From Salinisphaera japonica YTM-1 (GTDB taxonomy: Bacteria; Pseudomonadota; Gammaproteobacteria; Nevskiales; Salinisphaeraceae): DNA of 64,000 nucleotides. Each line of letters opens with the position of its first letter. Positions within the stretch are counted from its first letter, which is position 1. The stretch is taken from the NCBI RefSeq assembly GCF_003788585.1, contig NZ_AYKG01000002.1:1-64000 (forward strand), written 5' to 3'. Below are positions 17,048 through 60,792 of the stretch, piece after piece. The notes beneath the pieces were generated by a model. The model was not told the DNA's origin, did no database searches, and saw only the letters and a list, made by a program, of their open reading frames with translations. Both the position numbers and the translations under genes were made by a program.

Positions 17048-17704
17048 ATGAATGACTTATCCCAGACGAGCGAGACATCGCCGCGCATGGCCACGCGCTT
17101 TCGTGGCTTTCTGCCGGTCGTCATCGATGTCGAGACCGGCGGCTTCAATTCAGCCACCGATGCCCTGCTGGAAATCGCCGCCGTCACGGTGGGTTTCACC
17201 GACGACGGCAGCCTCGATCTGATGGAGTCCATCTCCTATCACGTGAAGCCGTTCGAGGGTGCGAACATCGAGCCCGCCTCGCTCGAGGTCAACGGTATCG
17301 ACCCCCATCATCCGCTGCGCCCGGCCATTCCCGAACGCGACGCCCTGGGCCGGATCTTTCGGCTTGTGCGCGAGGCGATGAAGACCACGGGCTGCAAGCG
17401 TGCGGTGCTGGTCGGGCATAACGCCCACTTCGATCTGGGCTTCTTGAACGCTGCAATCGCCCGCACCGGTATCAAGCGCAGCCCGTTTCATCCATTTTCG
17501 TGCTTCGATACGGCCACGCTGGCCGGCGTAGCCTACGGCCAGACCGTGCTGCGGCGGGCCGCCACGGCCGCCGGGATGGACTGGGACAACCAGGCGGCTC
17601 ACTCTGCACTTTATGACACCGAACAGACCGCGCGCCTGTTCTGTCGTATCGTCAATCGCTTTCAGCCGGTCTACGATGCCGTGCCGCCCGAGCCACAGAG
17701 CTAG
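17048..17704 (+). CDS. rnt: Ribonuclease T
   Basis: DEDD-family 3'-5' exonuclease that trims tRNA CCA ends and stable RNAs. The 218 residues contain Exo [11 protein letters not shown], Exo [13 protein letters not shown] and Exo [15 protein letters not shown] (the DEDDh His). The start at 17048 gives the normal RNase T N-terminus; longer upstream frames read into the argG promoter region. The TAG stop (17702-17704) is made of the target TA and first G of repeat A2. Confidence 0.96.
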
Positions 17705-17985
17705 GGCCTGTTGCCGTTTCATGCGAGTCCGCGCCAAGCGCTGTTTTGCGGCAAGACGAGGCGTAGCTCGCGCCGCGCAGTCATTCTGCGCCAGTGGGCT
17801 AGAACGCTGGATTGCCGCAAAACAGCGCTTGTCCCGAAGGGTTGGGCCGCCCATAAAAATTGAAGATGGGCGCCCTGCGGCGTTGCGAGTCTTGATCGTG
17901 GCACGCCACGATGCGGCGACTCGCGCCTTGCAGGGCACGATTTGCGGACGCCAACGCGGCGCTCGCATGAAACGGCAACAGGCCC
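17704..17985. repeat. Repeat family A, copy A2 (282-bp MITE-like element)
   Basis: Complete element bounded by TA dinucleotides (17702-17703 and 17986-17987). The ends are inverted: GGGCCTGTTGCCGTTTCATG on the left and the complementary GAAACGGCAACAGGCCC on the right. Its orientation is opposite to copies A1, A3 and A5. Subterminal sequence with GCCGCAAAACAGCGCTT appears twice, once near the left end and again at about 17814-17831. There is no transposase and no convincing gene inside, so it looks non-autonomous. Confidence 0.9.
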
Positions 17986-18045
17986 TAGGCACCGGCACGG
18001 TCTTCAAAGTCCACTTTTTCGATCCCTGGCTGACACAACCGATCT

Positions 18046-18855
18046 ATGTCCGCGACCCAATCCTCGTTTTCCAGTGACCGCCCCCTGCTCGGGCGGGCCC
18101 GCCTGATCCTCAAGGGCATCCATTTTGCCGGCGTGCTGCTGCTGGGCGTGGTGCTGTTGCCAAGCGTTGCCCTGCTGGGGCGCCATGCCAAGCATCTGAT
18201 CAACTGGTGGCTGGGCCGCATGCTGGCCGCACTCGCGGTCGACGTCGAACTGGATGGCCAGGCGCCGGCCGCGCCCATGCTCGTGGTGGCCAATCACTGC
18301 TCGTGGCTGGATATCCTGGTGCTGGGCTGGGCGTTCAACACCGCGTTCGTATCCAAGGCCGAGGTCGGCAAATGGCCGATCGTGGGCTCGTTCGCGCGCG
18401 CCGGTGGCACGTTGTTTCTTTCGCGAGGCGCCGGCAAGACCGGTGAGACCAGCGCGCGGATTCGCGAGGTGCTGGATAACGGGCGCTCGGTGTTGTTCTT
18501 TCCCGAAGGCACGACCACCTGTGATCCCAGCCCCCAGCGGTTTCATGCCCGCCTGTTTGCGGCCGCCATCGACGGCGGCTATTCGGTGCTGCCCGTGGGG
18601 CTTCGCTACTGCGACGACACCACCCCGCCGGGCATGCATCATGCGCTGGCGCCCTGGGTGAACGAGGCACCGCTGGGCCCGCATTTCAAGGATCTTTTCC
18701 GGCTGCGCGGCATCACCGCGCAGCTGCGTATCTGTGCCCCGATCAACCCGCGTGGCTATGATCGGCGCAGCCTGGCCGAGGCAGCTCGCACGGCCGTGGC
18801 GCATCGCCAGGCCGTGGCCACCGCCAAGGCGTTGCGCGAGGGCTCGGTCAGCTAG
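18046..18855 (+). CDS. 1-acyl-sn-glycerol-3-phosphate acyltransferase family protein (PlsC-like)
   Basis: Integral inner-membrane acyltransferase of 269 residues, expected to make phosphatidic acid or acylate a related lysophospholipid. Motif I NHxSxxD is present as NHCSWLD (83-89) and motif III as FPEGTTT (about 152-158). Hydrophobic segments at about 20-45 and in the middle fit membrane association. The gene is convergent with the PhaZ-like gene, and both stop codons share the CTAG at 18852-18855. Ornithine-lipid OlsA-type activity is an alternative. Confidence 0.9.
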   Translation: MSATQSSFSSDRPLLGRARLILKGIHFAGVLLLGVVLLPSVALLGRHAKHLINWWLGRMLAALAVDVELDGQAPAAPMLVVANHCSWLDILVLGWAFNTAFVSKAEVGKWPIVGSFARAGGTLFLSRGAGKTGETSARIREVLDNGRSVLFFPEGTTTCDPSPQRFHARLFAAAIDGGYSVLPVGLRYCDDTTPPGMHHALAPWVNEAPLGPHFKDLFRLRGITAQLRICAPINPRGYDRRSLAEAARTAVAHRQAVATAKALREGSVS

Positions 18856-19814
18856 CCTTCTTGGCCCGCCGGCGGGGCGATCTGCCCATCGGCCGGCAGG
18901 CCACGCAGCGCGTAATAATCAGCGTTATCGGTGCCGTCGTAGCGCCGCTCGTTGATGAAGCGCTGAATCACCGCGGCGCATTCGTTGGCACGCAATAACA
19001 AGAACAGATGCCCGCCGCCACGCACGATATGCACGTGCGATTTGGGAATCAGCCAATACAAAAGACGGCTCTGATACAGCGGGGCGATCGAATCGTCATC
19101 GCCGGCCATGACCAGCGTGGGGCACATCAGATTATGCAGCCGATGGATCGTCATCCAGCCCACGCGCGAGACCAGCTGGTTGATATAGCCATGTAGCTCC
19201 GGCGCGGCCAGATGTTCGCGTGCGACAGCGGTCTTGGGCGGTGTCTGTCGCACGAGTCCGTTATAGAGCCCGGACATGCCGTCCGGCGTGGCCTCGTCGG
19301 CATGGAAACGCCGTATTGCGTTAAAGCGCCGCAGGCTGTTTGTGTTCAGCGCGTTGATGCCCACACCGACGGTACTGGCCGCCAGCACCAACCGATTGAC
19401 TGGATGGCTGTCATCCAGGGCAAACGACTGGGCAAGTGCGGCCCCCCACCCCAGGCCAACGACGTTGACCGCGCTGTCATATCCCAGGCGCGCGAGAAAC
19501 GTCTTCAACAGTCGGGCGTGCCAGCCCATGCCGCGTGGCAGCCGTAGCGCGGGCGACGCCCCCGCGCCCGGCATTTCGGGAATGATGACCTCGATATCGT
19601 CCAGGGCATCGACCAGCGGCAGCAGCATGTCCAGATGCGTACCCAGCGTGCCGAGCAGCACCATCGGCCGCCCGGCCCCACGACGCAGGCCATAGCGCAG
19701 CCGGACACCGTCGACATCCAGCCAGTCGATCTGCATGCGGGTACGCCGACGCAGCGCGCTCTGGGCCGGCGGCAGCGCGCGACGAGCGCCGCGCGGGGTG
19801 GCTTGTGCCATCAT
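18852..19814 (-). CDS. PhaZ-like alpha/beta hydrolase lacking the nucleophile Ser (copy 1)
   Basis: 320 residues, closely resembling intracellular mcl-PHA depolymerase PhaZ along its length, including GWMTIHRLHN, CPTLVMAGDDDSI and the C-terminal GGGHLFLLLR with the catalytic His. The nucleophile elbow reads GLGWGA: the Ser of the usual G-V-S-W-G is Gly122 (codon GGG at 19449-19451). The Asp and His are kept. The start overlaps the upstream gene (ATGATG across its stop), so the two are coupled with phaC in one operon. It may be an inactive regulator or binding partner of the synthase, or use other chemistry; hydrolase activity as such is doubtful. Confidence 0.88.
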   Translation of the reverse strand: MMAQATPRGARRALPPAQSALRRRTRMQIDWLDVDGVRLRYGLRRGAGRPMVLLGTLGTHLDMLLPLVDALDDIEVIIPEMPGAGASPALRLPRGMGWHARLLKTFLARLGYDSAVNVVGLGWGAALAQSFALDDSHPVNRLVLAASTVGVGINALNTNSLRRFNAIRRFHADEATPDGMSGLYNGLVRQTPPKTAVAREHLAAPELHGYINQLVSRVGWMTIHRLHNLMCPTLVMAGDDDSIAPLYQSRLLYWLIPKSHVHIVRGGGHLFLLLRANECAAVIQRFINERRYDGTDNADYYALRGLPADGQIAPPAGQEG

Positions 19815-20662
19815 CGTTCCTCGAAAAGCGCTAGAAATGCCTCGATCCGGCGCAGGGCTTCGCTGCGCCGCTCGATCAACAGCCAGTGCCCGGCCCCGTG
19901 CAGCACGGACAGCTCAGCATGTGGCATAAGCAGTTGTAGCAGCCGCGCGTTGGCCAGCGGCACGATTCGATCATCGTCGCCGGCCAGGATCAGCGCCGGG
20001 CTTTTGATGCGGTGAGCAAACAACAGGCTGGAAAAGCCGGCCACGGCATAGAGCTGGCCGGCCAGCGCGGCCGGGCTCGGCGCGCGAGCACCCGCCAGAA
20101 CCGAAGCCACGTCGCGACAATCGCGCTCGGAGCGCCCGCCAAAAATCTCGCGTGCTTCGCGGGCATCCACCGCCAGGCCCGCCAGCCCGTCGATACGGGC
20201 CAGGCGCTTCAACGCGCGCCAGCGCCCGGGCAGCATCGTCTGGCCACAGGATGTTGCCACCAGAACGAGCGCGTGTACGCGCCCCGCATGGCTGCGGGCC
20301 AGCTGCTGGGCCAGCAGGCCGCCCCAGCCCATGCCGAGCACGTTGACTCGGGCCAGCCCCAACGCATCAAGCAGCCCGGCAACCAGGCCCGCACGCGCGG
20401 CCATGCGTTGACGCGCCGCGGCGAACGAGACCCCCTGGCTGCCGTGCATGCCCGGCCAGTCGAATATCACCGTGGGGCAAGACAAGGCCTGACAGAACGA
20501 GGCCAGCAACGCGCGATCGGCGCCGTAATCGCTCAATAACAGGAGCGTGGTGCCGTGGCCGGGGGTCCGCGTTATGCCCAGGCGCTGGCCGGCCACGTCG
20601 ATCTCGACGTCGGTCCCCGGCTCGTCCGCCGCCCCGCGGCTCGTTTCAGCGCTGTCGGACAT
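19811..20662 (-). CDS. PhaZ-like alpha/beta hydrolase lacking the nucleophile Ser (copy 2)
   Basis: 283 residues from ATG 20662, which has GGGGCG close upstream and overlaps the phaC stop by 17 bp. The fold matches its neighbour: VNVLGMGWGGLLAQQ, LILAGDDDRIVPL and GAGHWLLIE. Here too the elbow Ser is replaced by Gly (Gly112, codon GGC at 20327-20329, one base from AGC), while the Asp and His remain. Sequence between the two copies has diverged well beyond a recent duplication, so the shared Ser loss is probably old or selected. Likely role is in PHA granule metabolism, activity unknown. Confidence 0.85.
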   Translation of the reverse strand: MSDSAETSRGAADEPGTDVEIDVAGQRLGITRTPGHGTTLLLLSDYGADRALLASFCQALSCPTVIFDWPGMHGSQGVSFAAARQRMAARAGLVAGLLDALGLARVNVLGMGWGGLLAQQLARSHAGRVHALVLVATSCGQTMLPGRWRALKRLARIDGLAGLAVDAREAREIFGGRSERDCRDVASVLAGARAPSPAALAGQLYAVAGFSSLLFAHRIKSPALILAGDDDRIVPLANARLLQLLMPHAELSVLHGAGHWLLIERRSEALRRIEAFLALFEER

Positions 20663-22376
20663 AACGCCCCGGTGCGGTATCGAGCGGGGCACAGCCTAGG
20701 GCCGTATCACCGTAGTGATCGGGTGCGGTGCGCGGGGCAGCGCCGTGTGCCTGGCACCAGGCCAGCCATTCGTGCCACCACGACTCGTGATAGACCGGCG
20801 CCCCGGCCTGCCAATCGTCGGCCGTCTCACCCTGGCCACAGACATCGCTGGCATAAACCGTATCCTCGCCCGGCGGGCAGACCAGTGATTGCACATGCCC
20901 GGCCCCGACCAGCACGAACCGACACGGCGCACTCAGACGTGCAGCACTGTCATGACAGGCACGCCACGGGGTGATGTGATCCTTTTCGCCGGCCATGACG
21001 AACACATCACAGTCGACCGCTGCCAGGTCGATCGCGATACCGTCGATCATGATCCCACCGGGCCGGGCCAGGGCATCATCGCCGTAGATACGCAGCAGAT
21101 CGGCATGCAGGCGTGCCGGCAGCCGGGTGGTATCGGCGTTCCAGTACAGGATATCGCTGGCCGGCGGGCGCTGGCCGAGTACATAGTTGTTGGTCACGAA
21201 TCGCCAGACGCAATCTTCCGGGCGCAACCAGGCAAAGGCCCGTGCCATGTCGGCCCCGTCGAGTACGCCGGTCGTCGAGGAGCGCGCCAGGGCGTGTCGC
21301 ACGACGCGTTCGTCATGCGCCCGGCCGGCGTCGTCGGTGGCCACGCTCTTGCCCAGCAATGTCACAAACAAGGACAGACAGGCCACATCGGCCGGTGCGG
21401 AGACTGCCTCGGTATCGCCCACTGGCCCGCGGGCGCGGCGATAGGCCAGCGCCACGGCCGCGGTGAGCCCGCCGGCACAGGCGCCCACGAGCTTTACCGC
21501 AGCCCCATCGTTAAGTGCGGCGACATGCTCGATCGCCTGATCCACGGCCTTGACGTAATCCGCCAGACCCCAGTGTTTCTGGGCGGCCGTGGGATTACGC
21601 CAGGACAGCATGAACACCGCCTGCCCGGCGGCCAGCGCGTGGCGCACGAAGCTGTTATCGGGCGATAGATCAAAGACATAGAACTTGTTGATCTGGGGCG
21701 GCACGATAAGAATCGGCGCCCCGTCCTGCTGCGGCGTGGCCGGGGCATACTGAATCAGCTCGACCAGCGCGTCGCGATAGATGACCGCACCCGGCGTGGC
21801 TGCGATGTTCTTGCCGATCGTGAACGCGGACGTATCGACCTGGCGCGGCAGGCCCTGATGGCTCGCCATGTCATCGATGAACTGCACGAGCCCCGTGAGC
21901 ATCGACGCACCCTTGCTGGCTCGAACCCGTGCATAAAAACCAGGATGCAGGAAGAACAGATTGCTCGGTGCCCCGGCAGCCACCGCATGACGCACGACAA
22001 AGCGCAGGCGATCGCGCGTGGTGTCATCGACCGTGAGCGCCTCGACCAGATCGGTCAGCGCCTGCGACCAGGCCAGATAAGTCTGCAGGCTGCGCCGGAA
22101 CACGGGATGCGCTTGCCAGGACGTATCCGTGAACCGCCGGTCGCCGGCCCGCGGGGCAAGCGGCGCGCGCCCGACGCTGATAAGCGCCAGACGCGCGATG
22201 AGTGCCAGCTCGATGCGTGCCACGGTCAAGGGCTGGCGCGCGCTGGCCGCCACGAGTTCGGACATCGAGCGCGACAGCGAGGGCCATTCGGCCCGACGGC
22301 TGGGATCCATGACCTCCGGCTCGGCCGATGGCAGTGCGGGGCTTCTAACGGCTGACCGGGGCCTGGAAATCGGCAT
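20646..22376 (-). CDS. phaC: Class II-type polyhydroxyalkanoate synthase
   Basis: Polymerises (R)-3-hydroxyacyl-CoA into storage polyester at the granule surface. 576 residues from the ATG at 22376. The lipase-like box is GACAGG with catalytic Cys300 (the Ser-to-Cys change typical of PHA synthases), and Asp in VMAGEKDHITPW and His in GAGHVQS complete the triad. LIVPPQINKFYVFDLSP and WRNP are strong synthase blocks. Length and the PhaZ-like partners point to class II (medium-chain) rather than class I, which I infer. Stop overlaps the next gene, so phaC and two hydrolase-like genes form one unit. No phasin or phaD is seen downstream. Confidence 0.92.
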   Translation of the reverse strand: MPISRPRSAVRSPALPSAEPEVMDPSRRAEWPSLSRSMSELVAASARQPLTVARIELALIARLALISVGRAPLAPRAGDRRFTDTSWQAHPVFRRSLQTYLAWSQALTDLVEALTVDDTTRDRLRFVVRHAVAAGAPSNLFFLHPGFYARVRASKGASMLTGLVQFIDDMASHQGLPRQVDTSAFTIGKNIAATPGAVIYRDALVELIQYAPATPQQDGAPILIVPPQINKFYVFDLSPDNSFVRHALAAGQAVFMLSWRNPTAAQKHWGLADYVKAVDQAIEHVAALNDGAAVKLVGACAGGLTAAVALAYRRARGPVGDTEAVSAPADVACLSLFVTLLGKSVATDDAGRAHDERVVRHALARSSTTGVLDGADMARAFAWLRPEDCVWRFVTNNYVLGQRPPASDILYWNADTTRLPARLHADLLRIYGDDALARPGGIMIDGIAIDLAAVDCDVFVMAGEKDHITPWRACHDSAARLSAPCRFVLVGAGHVQSLVCPPGEDTVYASDVCGQGETADDWQAGAPVYHESWWHEWLAWCQAHGAAPRTAPDHYGDTALGCAPLDTAPGRYVRQR

Positions 22377-22477
22377 GAAAAACTCACGGCTCGACGAGAC
22401 AGCACAAACGGCTGGTCGCGGGAAGTACGTCGTCAATCGTTACAATGCCCCGAGCATTAATTCAAGCGAAACCGGCC

Positions 22478-26607: not shown

Positions 26608-27035
26608 GGCGTCTCGACAAACAATTAGAGCGCACGAAAGGCTATCAGACCGGGCGGCCGGAGCACGACGGGCGACCGGGCGCCGGGCTCCTTTTTCATC
26701 CGCAGATGACGCAGATTGCGCCAATGTGGGCCTGATGGGGCCGCAGGCTGTCGGCTGAATGATCGGTTGAAGGCTTTTCGCTTCCTGCGGGAGAGGAAAA
26801 ACGGGCGTTGCCTGGCCGGGCGTCTTGTTGATTTTCCGGGGCTTCGTTCCCGGTTTTATCTGCAGATAACGCCGGCGCTGGACGGATATCGAAACGACCC
26901 GCTGATTGCCCTGCTTGATGACGCGCAGCAGGCGTATACACCAATCGACACGACAAGACGCCCGAGATGACCGGCGTCGGTCTGGCACGTTTAGTGACTC
27001 ACTGGGCAGGCCGTGACGTAGCGCGGCGACTCATC
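26608..27035. other. 428-bp spacer without a supported gene
   Basis: Lies upstream of the divergently oriented AEC gene and the repeat A3 element. It contains short CGCAGAT-type words (26700-26722; a TCTGCAGATAACGCC stretch near 26862) related to the repeats after metG. A possible 84-residue frame at 26716-26970 has no recognisable domain or ribosome binding site and is not called. The AEC promoter should be near 26610-26660. Confidence 0.5.
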
Positions 27036-27037
27036 TA

Positions 27038-27334
27038 GGGCCTGTTGCCGTTTCATACGAGCGCCGCTTTCGTCGAGAGTCCGCAGTGTGTCCTGCAAGG
27101 CGCGAGTCGCCGCGTCGTGGCGTGCCCCGATCAAGACTCGCCAGCGGCAGGGCGCCCATCTTCAATTTTTTATGGGCGGCCCAACCCTTCGGGACAAGCG
27201 CCCTGAAATTAACGACACGTCGGCAATACAGCGTTCTAGCACGCTAGCGCAGAACGACTGCGCGGCACGTGCTACGCCTCGTCTTGCCGCAAAACAGCGC
27301 TTGGCGCGGACTCGTACGAAACGGCAACAGCCCC
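27038..27334. repeat. Repeat family A, copy A3 (297-bp MITE-like element)
   Basis: Bounded by TA at 27036-27037 and 27335-27336. Left end GGGCCTGTTGCCGTTTCATA, right end with GAAACGGCAACAGCCCC. The interior is nearly the same as copy A5, including an AATTAACGACACGTCGGCAA stretch absent from A2. The right end supplies the first G of the TAG stop of the minus-strand GMC oxidoreductase. Confidence 0.9.
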
Positions 27335-28965
27335 TAGGGCGTACGATCCGCGATGATCATGTCTGCAGCTTTCTCTGCGATCGCGGTGGTGGGCGCATTG
27401 GTATTGCCACCCACGATCGTTGGCATGATGGAGGCATCGACCACGCGCAGGGCCTCCAGGGTGTGCACACGCAGCCGGTCGTCAACCACCGCCGCCTTGT
27501 CGTGCCCCATGCGACAGGTACCCACGGGGTGATAGATCGTCTCGGCCCGCCGCCGTACATAATCCGCGATCGCGGCATCGTCGTTCATATCGGCGTCCTG
27601 GGGTTCCAACGGGCGCTCGAGATGTTCGGCCAGCGGCTTGGCGCGCATGATGTTGCGCGCGATCTTCACTGCCTTGGTCATCTGCTCGATGTCTCGCGGC
27701 TCGGCCAGATAGTTCGGATCAATGATCGGATAGTCGCGTGGTTTGGCGCTCGCCAGAGTGATGCGCCCGCGCGAGGCCGGGTGGAGATCGCATACGCGCA
27801 GGCTGTAGCCGTGATGCTTCATCGTGTTGATCACGTTGCCGTGGTCCTGCTCGATCGTGGCGATGAAGTGAAACTGTAGATCCGACTGGCGCGGATCGTC
27901 GGTCGTGCTGATGAAGCCGCCGGATTCGGCGATATTGCTCGTGAACTGGCCGCGGCCGTGGCGAAAATACTGATAGATCGCCTTGGGCGAGTCGATCAGG
28001 ATGAACTTGGGCGACATGCGCAGGCTCAGCCTGGTCTTTTCGATATCGATGACGCTGATATCCAGATGATCCTGCAGATTGCGCCCGACGCCGTCGAGCT
28101 CGGTGACCATGGGAATACCGTGTGGTTCGATCGCGTCCCGGGGGCCTACGCCGGAGAGCATCAGCAGCTGCGGCGAGTTGATCGCACCACTGCACAACAG
28201 CACTTCGCGCTTGGCGTGGAGCGTACGCTTTCGCTTGAGCAGGCCCTGGCGCAATGCAACACCGGTGGCGCGTTTGCCCTCGAAAACGATCCGCTCGGCC
28301 TGGGCACGCGTGAGCACCGTTAGGTTCTTTCGATGCTTGACCGGATGCAGAAACGCATCGGCGTTGGAACAACGGCGCCCGTTGTTCTGAGCCACGTCAT
28401 AAAGACCAAAGCCCTGATCGGTGGCACCACCAAAATCATCGTTGCGCGGATAGCCGCAGGCCTGGGCTGCCTGAATGAACTTTTCGTTCAAAGGGTTGGA
28501 ATGGCGAGGCTTGCTCACGGTATAGCTGCCGCCGGCCCCGTGGTAGTCGTTTTCGCCCTCTTCGAAACGCTCGGAGCGCTTGAAATAAGCCAGCATTTCG
28601 CCATAACCCCAGCCGCGGTTGCCAAGCTCGGCCCAGTGGTCATAGTCGGCGGCTGAGCCACGGGTATAACACTGGGCATTGATGGCCGACGAGCCGCCCA
28701 GCGTCTTGCCACGGGGCCAGTACAGCTTGCGCCCGCCCATATGTTCCTGTGGCGCGGTCCAGTAATACCAGTTGAGAAAGCGCGACCACATCAGCCCGAT
28801 GATGCCACTGGGGATATGGATCAACGGGCTCCAGTCCGGCGGCCCGGCTTCGAGCATGACGACCGAGATATTGGGATCAGCGGTCAGCCGGTTGGCCAGA
28901 ACACACCCGGCCGAGCCGCCTCCGATAATCACGTAATCATAAGACGCCTGTGTCCCGTCGCCCAT
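27334..28965 (-). CDS. GMC-family FAD-dependent oxidoreductase (choline/alcohol dehydrogenase type)
   Basis: 543-residue flavoprotein. The N-terminal FAD motif IIGGGSAGCVLANRL, the GMC signature GKTLGGSSAINAQCYTRG, GAINSPQLLMLSGVGP and the C-terminal YHPVGTCRMG (catalytic His region) with NTNAPTTAIAEKAADMI are all seen. Both choline dehydrogenase (betA) and medium-chain alcohol dehydrogenase (alkJ) types share these motifs. The absence of betB or betI next door, and the nearby fatty-acid genes, lean towards an aliphatic alcohol substrate, which is only inference. The stop codon includes a base of repeat A3. Confidence 0.92.
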   Translation of the reverse strand: MGDGTQASYDYVIIGGGSAGCVLANRLTADPNISVVMLEAGPPDWSPLIHIPSGIIGLMWSRFLNWYYWTAPQEHMGGRKLYWPRGKTLGGSSAINAQCYTRGSAADYDHWAELGNRGWGYGEMLAYFKRSERFEEGENDYHGAGGSYTVSKPRHSNPLNEKFIQAAQACGYPRNDDFGGATDQGFGLYDVAQNNGRRCSNADAFLHPVKHRKNLTVLTRAQAERIVFEGKRATGVALRQGLLKRKRTLHAKREVLLCSGAINSPQLLMLSGVGPRDAIEPHGIPMVTELDGVGRNLQDHLDISVIDIEKTRLSLRMSPKFILIDSPKAIYQYFRHGRGQFTSNIAESGGFISTTDDPRQSDLQFHFIATIEQDHGNVINTMKHHGYSLRVCDLHPASRGRITLASAKPRDYPIIDPNYLAEPRDIEQMTKAVKIARNIMRAKPLAEHLERPLEPQDADMNDDAAIADYVRRRAETIYHPVGTCRMGHDKAAVVDDRLRVHTLEALRVVDASIMPTIVGGNTNAPTTAIAEKAADMIIADRTP

Positions 28966-42748: not shown

Positions 42749-42831
42749 GGCAGCGCACCACGGCCGGCCCATCCTGAGCAGGGCGGCAGCTCACACGAAA
42801 CGCGAGATTTTCGATCATGCCGCGCAGCTTA

Positions 42832-43128
42832 GGGCCTGTTGCCGTTTCATGCGAGCGCCGTTTTCGTCGAGAGTCCGCAGTGTGTCCTGCAAGGCGCGAG
42901 TCGCCGCGTCGCGGCGTGCCACGACCAAGACTCGTAACGCCGCAGGGCGCCCATCGTTAATTTTTATGGGCGGCCCAACCCTTCGGGCCAAGCGCGCCAA
43001 AATTAACGACACGTCGGCAATACAGCGTTCTAGCCCACTTGCGCAGAGTGACTGCGCGGCGCGGACTACGCCTCGTCTTGCCGCAAAACAGCGCTTGGCG
43101 CGGGCTCGCATGAAACGGCAACAGGCCC
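42832..43128. repeat. Repeat family A, copy A5 (297-bp MITE-like element)
   Basis: Bounded by TA at 42830-42831 and 43129-43130, with outer bases T on the left and A on the right. Left end GGGCCTGTTGCCGTTTCATG, right end GAAACGGCAACAGGCCC. The outer bases differ on the two sides, so the duplicated target is TA and not a longer CTAG. It lies between the permease gene start and the efflux outer-membrane gene end. Confidence 0.92.
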
Positions 43129-43185
43129 TAACCCAGCCGGCCAGGACGTGCACGGCCGGGCCGCACGCACAACACCCGCCCCCGA

Positions 43186-60607: not shown

Positions 60608-60647
60608 GGCCGTTTGAGACCGCACGCAATTGGGCTATACTTTTTCG

Positions 60648-60792
60648 CGTCTTCAGGGCGGGGCGTAATTCCCCACCGGTGGTATGGCCGTCAAGGCCGA
60701 GCCCACGAGCGCTTTTGCATCCTTGCAAAAGGTCAGCAGATCTGGTGAAAGGCCAGAGCCGACGGTTACAGTCCGGATGAAAGAAGACGCGA
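60648..60792 (+). promoter_or_regulatory. FMN riboswitch (RFN element)
   Basis: The RFN consensus can be followed in order: CTTCAGGGCGGGG and AATTCCCCACCGGTGGTA at the start, a variable stem (GCGCTTTTGCATCC), AGCAGATCTGGTGAAAG and CCAGAGCCGACGGTTACAGT, and GTCCGGATGAAAGAAGACG closing the basal stem. It lies about 80 bases ahead of ribB and lets FMN shut off riboflavin synthesis. Confidence 0.97.

Follow-up and report, generated by a model that had tools for sequence, protein, structure and literature searches.

Both of the PhaZ-like genes that follow the polyhydroxyalkanoate (PHA) synthase gene phaC in Salinisphaera japonica YTM-1 have lost the nucleophilic serine of the depolymerase triad, and on balance we favor the reading that their products are descendants of PhaZ that serve the PHA synthase or the PHA granule as non-hydrolytic partners. 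The locus lies in the window, a stretch of 64,000 nucleotides (contig NZ_AYKG01000002.1, positions 1 to 64,000), in the order phaC, gene B, and gene A (Table 1). The first-pass annotation had reported that the elbow reads GLGWG in A and GMGWG in B, and this was borne out: the Ser of the GxSxG motif is replaced by Gly122 (GGG) in A and by Gly112 (GGC) in B. The catalytic Asp and His of PhaZ are present in both proteins, as had also been stated (Asp241 and His269 in A, Asp231 and His259 in B). However, the neighboring PhaZ sequence was less intact than claimed, and the FNGIG loop with its essential Asn was altered to LGTLG in A and to LSDYG in B. The broken nucleophile, the changed loop, and in A also the lid suggest that activity has been lost, in which case neither protein would still cleave PHA through Ser-His-Asp catalysis.

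TIGR02240 (PHA depolymerase PhaZ) was the best NCBIfam model for both proteins, with scores of 154.1 bits for A and 140.3 bits for B, both below the curated cut-off of 250.6. A Pfam scan at 0.001 returned only Abhydrolase_1, Abhydrolase_6, and Hydrolase_4 for A and B; a phasin domain was not found, and neither PhaE nor PhaR was among these α/β-hydrolase matches, although Pfam presumably holds models for those subunits. The two proteins shared 30% identity, and of 50 family-invariant residues, B lacked 14 and A lacked 13. A retained 42 of 62 A-specific residues, with 3 losses from residue 260 onward. AlphaFold2 predicted an α/β-hydrolase fold with a lid for both, in agreement with the matches to solved hydrolases, with predicted local distance difference test (pLDDT) scores of 89.0 for B and 77.5 for A, the latter being poor in the lid and tail. 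The PhaZ of Bacillus thuringiensis (8ynv; S102A, 8ynw) has the same fold and differs as an enzyme with Ser102; it matched B with a Z score of 28.1 (root mean square deviation of 2.4 over 244 residues) and A with a Z score of 29.2 (2.4 over 257 residues), tying with many esterases and other hydrolases in both structure lists. The pair resembles the medium-chain-length PHA depolymerase PhaZ (TIGR02240) of Pseudomonas putida (Ser102, Asp221, and His248, with a lid) in fold, in its place behind phaC, in the Asp and His, and in the best model, and three of the four scored Ser-bearing A proteins pass the TIGR02240 cut-off. It differs in lacking the Ser and the Asn-Gly of FNGIG, in scoring under the cut-off, and, for A, in a rewritten lid and an extra conserved tail. 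In the P. putida enzyme, activity is abolished by mutation of Asn35 or by targeted deletions that affect the lid or its vicinity, and FNGIG is important (PMC12504323).

We compared 81 genomes, the window's own (G000) and 80 relatives. An adjacent A and B pair was present in G000, in 12 of the 13 other Salinisphaera genomes, and in one of three genomes from two other genera of the Salinisphaeraceae (G015), giving 14 pairs; it was not found in G007 (85% complete), G014, or G016. Eleven pairs recurred in named records, namely Salinisphaera hydrothermalis, S. shabanensis, S. orenii, S. halophila, Q1T1-3, GH4, NP40, and UBA1666, the remaining records being a Salinisphaeraceae metagenome-assembled genome (MAG), Lysobacterales SP48, and Endozoicomonas G2_2. 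The titles of the last two look wrong, since A and B of Endozoicomonas sp. G2_2 (L073) are identical to those of G009 and A and B of Lysobacterales bacterium SP48 (L067) to those of G011, and both of these genomes fall in the window's genus by genome taxonomy.

The nucleophile position of B was Gly in all 14 pairs, encoded by the synonymous codons GGC, GGA, and GGG. It was Ser in all 33 outgroup PhaZ-like rows of our tree set, and thus Gly in the pair is not a matter of chance. Within the same order, all 15 PhaZ-like proteins that scored above 75 bits and had a fetched locus likewise carried Ser. A collection of 71 named loci was scanned with two patterns, one built for the Gly form, which a Gly form of differing sequence could escape. 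The Gly elbow occurred there only in 11 Salinisphaeraceae loci, and 45 PhaZ-like loci (L078 to L121 and L123) had Ser; 15 were left uncounted (L122, a cut frame, and L124 to L137, distant hydrolases). The glycine of the FNGIG loop was also invariant in the 33 outgroups, while B carried Asp (11), Glu (2), or Asn (1) there. With the Gly elbow, the altered loop, and a start at the end of phaC in 14 of 14 cases each, B is, as far as sequence can tell, an old, family-wide pseudoenzyme. It has conserved features of its own: the lid residues Asp166, Arg171, Phe174, Arg177, and Cys182 were each kept in 13 of 14 proteins, as was Trp260 beside the His. The first-pass annotation had raised the idea that another serine might replace the nucleophile, and none particular to B turned up; no Ser, Thr, or Cys was invariant only in the 14 B proteins, and the invariant Ser212 and Thr137 were near-invariant in the wider PhaZ-like set as well. 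Cys182 was considered as a substitute and rejected, being present in 13 of 14, located in the lid, and absent from G015.

Gene A behaved differently. Its nucleophile position was Ser in nine of 14 pairs, Ala in two (G001 and G002), and Gly in three (G000, G010, and G011). The notion that Gly is universal in the phaC-linked pairs of this clade therefore held for B but failed for A, and the loss described for both copies, although true of the window, was neither one event nor general, with relatives keeping Ser in A and never in B. In a tree of 61 rows with the nucleophile column left out, A and B each formed one group (support of 99/98 or better), and the Ser-bearing G006 and G008 fell between G002 (Ala) and the group of G001, G010, G000, and G011 (100/97). 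A joined A, B, and PhaC alignment recovered this order, and its relevant branches had 100% support; the tree of B only placed G002 with G006 and G008, weakly (81/53), and still needed two losses. Parsimony on Ser versus not-Ser required two changes, and on these trees A has lost its Ser at least twice. This half of the genus comprises seven genomes, and in every one of them, the two Ser-keepers included, the loop Gly of A was already Thr or Ala, which is most simply explained by the oxyanion loop changing first and the Ser later. TIGR02240 scores of Ser-bearing A were 276.7 (G003), 275.3 (G005), and 296.7 bits (G015), with G006 under the cut-off at 213.3, and those of Ser-less A were 223.8 (G002), 181.1 (G001), and 147.3 (G010) next to the window's own value; six other A proteins were not scored. 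The retention of Ser in most A proteins makes the loss in A secondary; it does not make it unselected. A local tandem duplication as the origin of the pair was not shown: A and B stood apart in the tree, and constraining them together gave a borderline p-AU of 0.0489.

The Ser-less A proteins appear to be under selection and not decaying. Between G000 and G011, the ratio of nonsynonymous to synonymous substitution rates (dN/dS) was 0.083 for A, 0.258 for B, and 0.130 for phaC by the Nei-Gojobori method (NG86) and 0.070, 0.240, and 0.084, respectively, by YN00. Four A pairs that bear Ser span a range that includes 0.083 (G005-G003, 0.045; G005-G009, 0.055; G006-G008, 0.080; G004-G005, 0.110); the value for G012-G013 (0.39) rests on almost no changes, and the pairs G000-G010 (A, 0.126; phaC, 0.223) and G000-G001 (A, 0.252) are saturated (dS above 1). 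The ratio of A to phaC branch lengths stood at 0.70, 0.83, and 0.98 where Ser was lost and at 1.26 and 0.67 for the two internal branches leading there. After the loss, it was 0.32 in G000, 0.38 in G010, and 1.06 on the short branch of G011, compared with 0.30 to 0.59 on 10 of 13 live-lineage branches (the exceptions were G012 and G013, both near zero, and G003, at 0.96). The idea that Ser loss set off a strong burst of change was rejected, the rise being only modest. None of the 14 A or 14 B matches contained an internal stop. Changes in A were concentrated in the lid: A of G000, G010, and G011 shared 57% (first core part), 24% (lid), 68% (second core part), and 65% (tail) identity with five live A proteins, compared with 87, 80, 96, and 80% among live proteins. 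Against the baseline of the distant live A of G015 (67, 44, 70, and 59%), it is the lid that stands out in the Ser-less proteins. The tail, which extends past the fold, was not seen in the 30 outgroup PhaZ ends compared. Overall, the earlier proposal that selection favors a non-hydrolytic role has good support in the case of B and, through the low dN/dS after the loss, finds support for A in this clade.

The pair co-occurred with phaC. Of 17 genomes, those 14 with the pair, and no others, had a PhaC N-domain above its cut-off, with a weak 37-position match in G007 and none in G014 and G016, and a phasin exceeded its cut-off in the same 14; G000 has a separate Phasin_2 match elsewhere in the genome. 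PhaC of the window has its Cys, Asp, and His motifs (GACAGG, AGEKDH, and GAGHVQ), and a TTG at 22436 is a possible alternative start of its frame. Among 62 outgroup PhaZ-like loci, phaC was present in 58 and a second PhaZ-like gene beside the first in none, although the 15 order loci span just 2.8 to 3.9 kb, so that one could be missed there. A class-wide TIGR02240 survey at 1e-25, with at most six candidates scored per genome, matched five of 369 genomes and contributed little.

The overlaps from which the first-pass annotation had deduced translational coupling to phaC are present (17 bp at 20646 to 20662 and 4 bp at 19811 to 19814), and coupling itself is suggested by them. All 13 Salinisphaera genomes with the genes had an ATG in the B frame 17 bp inside the phaC end, and the junction sequence of G015 reads as a 4-bp ATGA; since B starts inside the end of phaC, ribosomes finishing PhaC could start B. 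The ATGA overlap between B and A occurred only in G000, G011, G010, and G001, which form the window's four-genome clade, where A lost its Ser. It was absent from G002, and thus it accompanied one of the two losses, not both. All start codons here are inferred, and further in-frame starts exist.

Taken together, these results would fit a scheme in which B is an old non-hydrolytic partner of the whole family, made together with PhaC, that regulates or scaffolds synthesis while docked on PhaC or the nascent PHA granule. A would have begun as an ordinary PHA depolymerase and, in this lineage, would have lost first the oxyanion glycine and next the nucleophile, kept its tail, and come to overlap B, so that phaC-B-A would encode a synthase-linked heteromer without hydrolysis. 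PhaE (class III), PhaR (class IV), and PhaM are small proteins that act on PHA synthase; the likeness to A and B is one of analogy only, as we saw no sequence relation and the partner here would be depolymerase derived. Neuroligins are α/β-hydrolase pseudoenzymes with a Ser-to-Gly loss and a binding role; they show the same loss as A and B but are eukaryotic adhesion proteins from an unrelated branch. A bolder version, which we regard as possible but doubtful, is that the Salinisphaeraceae PhaC represents a new kind of synthase with an obligate accessory subunit derived from a depolymerase, co-translated as PhaC-B (PhaC-B-A in the window's clade), in which the dead PhaZ binds the growing chain or granule surface and controls polymerization, the polymer-binding skill of a degrading enzyme thus having been turned to synthesis.

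Several observations weigh against a non-hydrolytic partnership with the synthase. On 14 of 23 branches, B changed more rapidly than phaC, and its dN/dS between G000 and G011 indicates weaker constraint than expected for a tight obligate subunit. PhaC has the conserved ending GRYV, and as the ATG lies within the codons for these residues, this may in part fix the length of the phaC/B overlap. The A/B overlap represents one evolutionary event (four genomes of one clade), the second Ser loss, in G002, came without it, and among the inferred starts an alternative one for A of G006, which has a live Ser, would create a 14-bp overlap with B. Confidence in the predicted structure of A is low in the lid and tail, where blocks fall below a pLDDT of 60. 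Finally, the acid and His kept in five of five Ser-less A and 14 of 14 B proteins would also suit residual chemistry.

B could instead be a regulatory pseudo-subunit of a live depolymerase A and not of PhaC, serving to position or restrain that enzyme, in which case the pair in the window's clade would be a remnant or structural. A and B share a fold and co-occur in 14 of 14 cases, with Ser in nine of the A proteins. In addition, six of six genomes of one live-A clade (G003, G004, G005, G009, G012, and G013) have A behind a leader of its own of 101 to 235 bp, by a start aligning among them, with the conserved block TGCGGCAAA (TGCGGCAAAnGTCkTA), and control of A separate from B is therefore possible. 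The block occurred perfectly once in each of these genomes, always in the B-A gap, in none of eight others searched, and was absent from G002, G006, and G008. However, B overlaps phaC in all 14 genomes while A overlaps B in four (in G006 by an alternative start), and the low dN/dS of the Ser-less A, with no decay, is unlike that of a remnant. We consider this explanation unlikely. A regulon for the block was rejected, as the six perfect matches are the B-A gaps and four one-mismatch sites fit chance (12 for the reversed pattern). In the gaps of the six genomes (for example, L072, 6817 to 6922), the promoter- or operator-like block is followed by an inverted repeat whose arms covary by eye: TGCCGC...GCGGCA in G003, G005, and G009, TGACG...CGTCA in G012 and G013, and an imperfect form in G004.

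A second alternative is that the chemistry has been repurposed, with the Gly elbow, the loop acid of B, and the Asp-His dyad catalyzing a Ser-free reaction, for example on hydroxyacyl-coenzyme A or chain ends. The invariant Asp and His of B and of the Ser-less A, the fixed Gly of B, and the loop acid in 13 of 14 B proteins (Asn in one) would be in line with this. Yet two kept residues are weak evidence in proteins that have lost 13 or 14 of 50 family-invariant positions, no single new residue took over at the A position (two genomes have Ala there and three have Gly), and the lid is the least conserved part of the Ser-less A, which makes such a reaction improbable. Relaxed selection, with PHA turnover unneeded and A and B drifting toward loss, agrees with the raised A/phaC ratios on the Ser-loss branches and with the fall in TIGR02240 scores from 275 to 297 bits (G003, G005, and G015) to 147 to 154 (G010 and G000), but the open frames, the dN/dS of 0.083, and the return of the ratio to 0.32 and 0.38, though not on the short G011 branch, render it very improbable. 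Sequencing or assembly error deserves practically no credence, because Gly in A recurs in two other assemblies, G011 and G010, Ala appears in two more (one of these assemblies is Salinisphaera sp. Q1T1-3, whose record carries no MAG label), and Gly in B is found in all 14 pairs.

No live intracellular PHA depolymerase was recognized in G000 by four models (TIGR02240, PF06850, PF10503, and NF050089), though one of unknown type is possible. Further TIGR02240 matches there scored 20 to 58 bits, and neither PF06850 (PHB_depo_C), PF10503 (Esterase_PHB), nor, at 1e-15, NF050089 (Bacillus type) gave a match. Elsewhere, PF06850 scored 24.7 bits in G001, under the cut-off, and NF050089 scored a weak 58 bits in G010 (cut-off, 300). 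PF10503 exceeded its cut-off of 23 in G006, G008, and G002, whose A lacks Ser; the bare matches in G002 (24.2 and 23.1 bits) may supply a substitute depolymerase. In G015, the phaC N-domain matched three times and PHB_depo_C picked out a separate depolymerase (233.5 bits), while the window's genome has a single phaC. The question thus arises of how species with PhaC and phasin, and with no recognized live intracellular depolymerase, recover their PHA.

If the partner reading of A and B is correct, this would be, to our knowledge, the first depolymerase-derived pseudoenzyme in the PHA cycle. In the literature collection searched, no paper combined PhaZ or PHA depolymerase with "pseudoenzyme," and none had both PHA and Salinisphaera in its title or abstract. 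In a survey from 2009, all PHA depolymerases in the database had a Ser box, or Cys in one family (PMC2666664); background on phaC1ZC2D and a phaZ mutant is given elsewhere (PMC8764540). Across the genus, one operon presents a natural series of live A, Ser-bearing A with a changed loop, Ala-bearing A, and Gly-bearing A overlapping B, through which both the transition from enzyme to regulator and an unrecognized partner of PhaC become testable. Such a partner subunit would be of use for bioplastic production.

Table 1. Positions of the phaC-B-A locus and its diagnostic residues in the window
Feature	Position	Strand	Remark
phaC, PHA synthase (class I/II type)	20646..22376	-	catalytic Cys/Asp/His motifs present
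Gene B, phaC-proximal PhaZ-like putative pseudoenzyme, 283 amino acids	19811..20662	-	
Gene A, phaC-distal PhaZ-like protein, 320 amino acids, nucleophile secondarily lost	18852..19814	-	
phaC end/B start overlap, 17 bp	20646..20662	-	ATG at equal distance in 13/13 Salinisphaera genomes with the genes
B stop/A start overlap, 4 bp, ATGA	19811..19814	-	G000, G011, G010, and G001 only
B Gly112 codon (GGC), nucleophile position	20327..20329	-	Gly in 14/14 B
B Asp45 codon, oxyanion loop	20528..20530	-	D 11, E 2, N 1 among 14 B; outgroups Gly 33/33
B Asp231, triad acid kept	19970..19972	-	
B His259, triad His kept	19886..19888	-	
B-specific conserved lid motif, D166...C182	20117..20167	-	
A Gly122 codon (GGG), nucleophile position	19449..19451	-	
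A Gly55-Thr56 codons, Asn-Gly of FNGIG lost	19647..19652	-	
A Asp241, triad acid kept	19092..19094	-	
A His269, triad His kept	19008..19010	-	
Lid of A, residues 151-205, where Ser-less A has diverged most	19200..19364	-	
A-specific conserved C-terminal tail, residues 288-314	18873..18953	-	unseen in 30 outgroup PhaZ ends

An acyltransferase gene of the lyso-ornithine-lipid/AGP type (below those curated cut-offs) at 18046 to 18855 on the plus strand converges on gene A, and the two ends overlap by 4 bp. A dispersed repeat of approximately 290 bp, resembling a miniature transposable element, occurs in the window at 17703 to 17993 (plus strand), 27035 to 27335 (minus strand), and 42827 to 43129 (minus strand), with perfect 27-nucleotide terminal inverted repeats at 17701 to 17727 and 17962 to 17988. 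It had 108 matches in its own genome, 41 to 76 in G001, G006, G010, and G011, and 3 in G005. An ordinary flavin mononucleotide riboswitch lies at 60645 to 60792 on the plus strand (117.2 bits).

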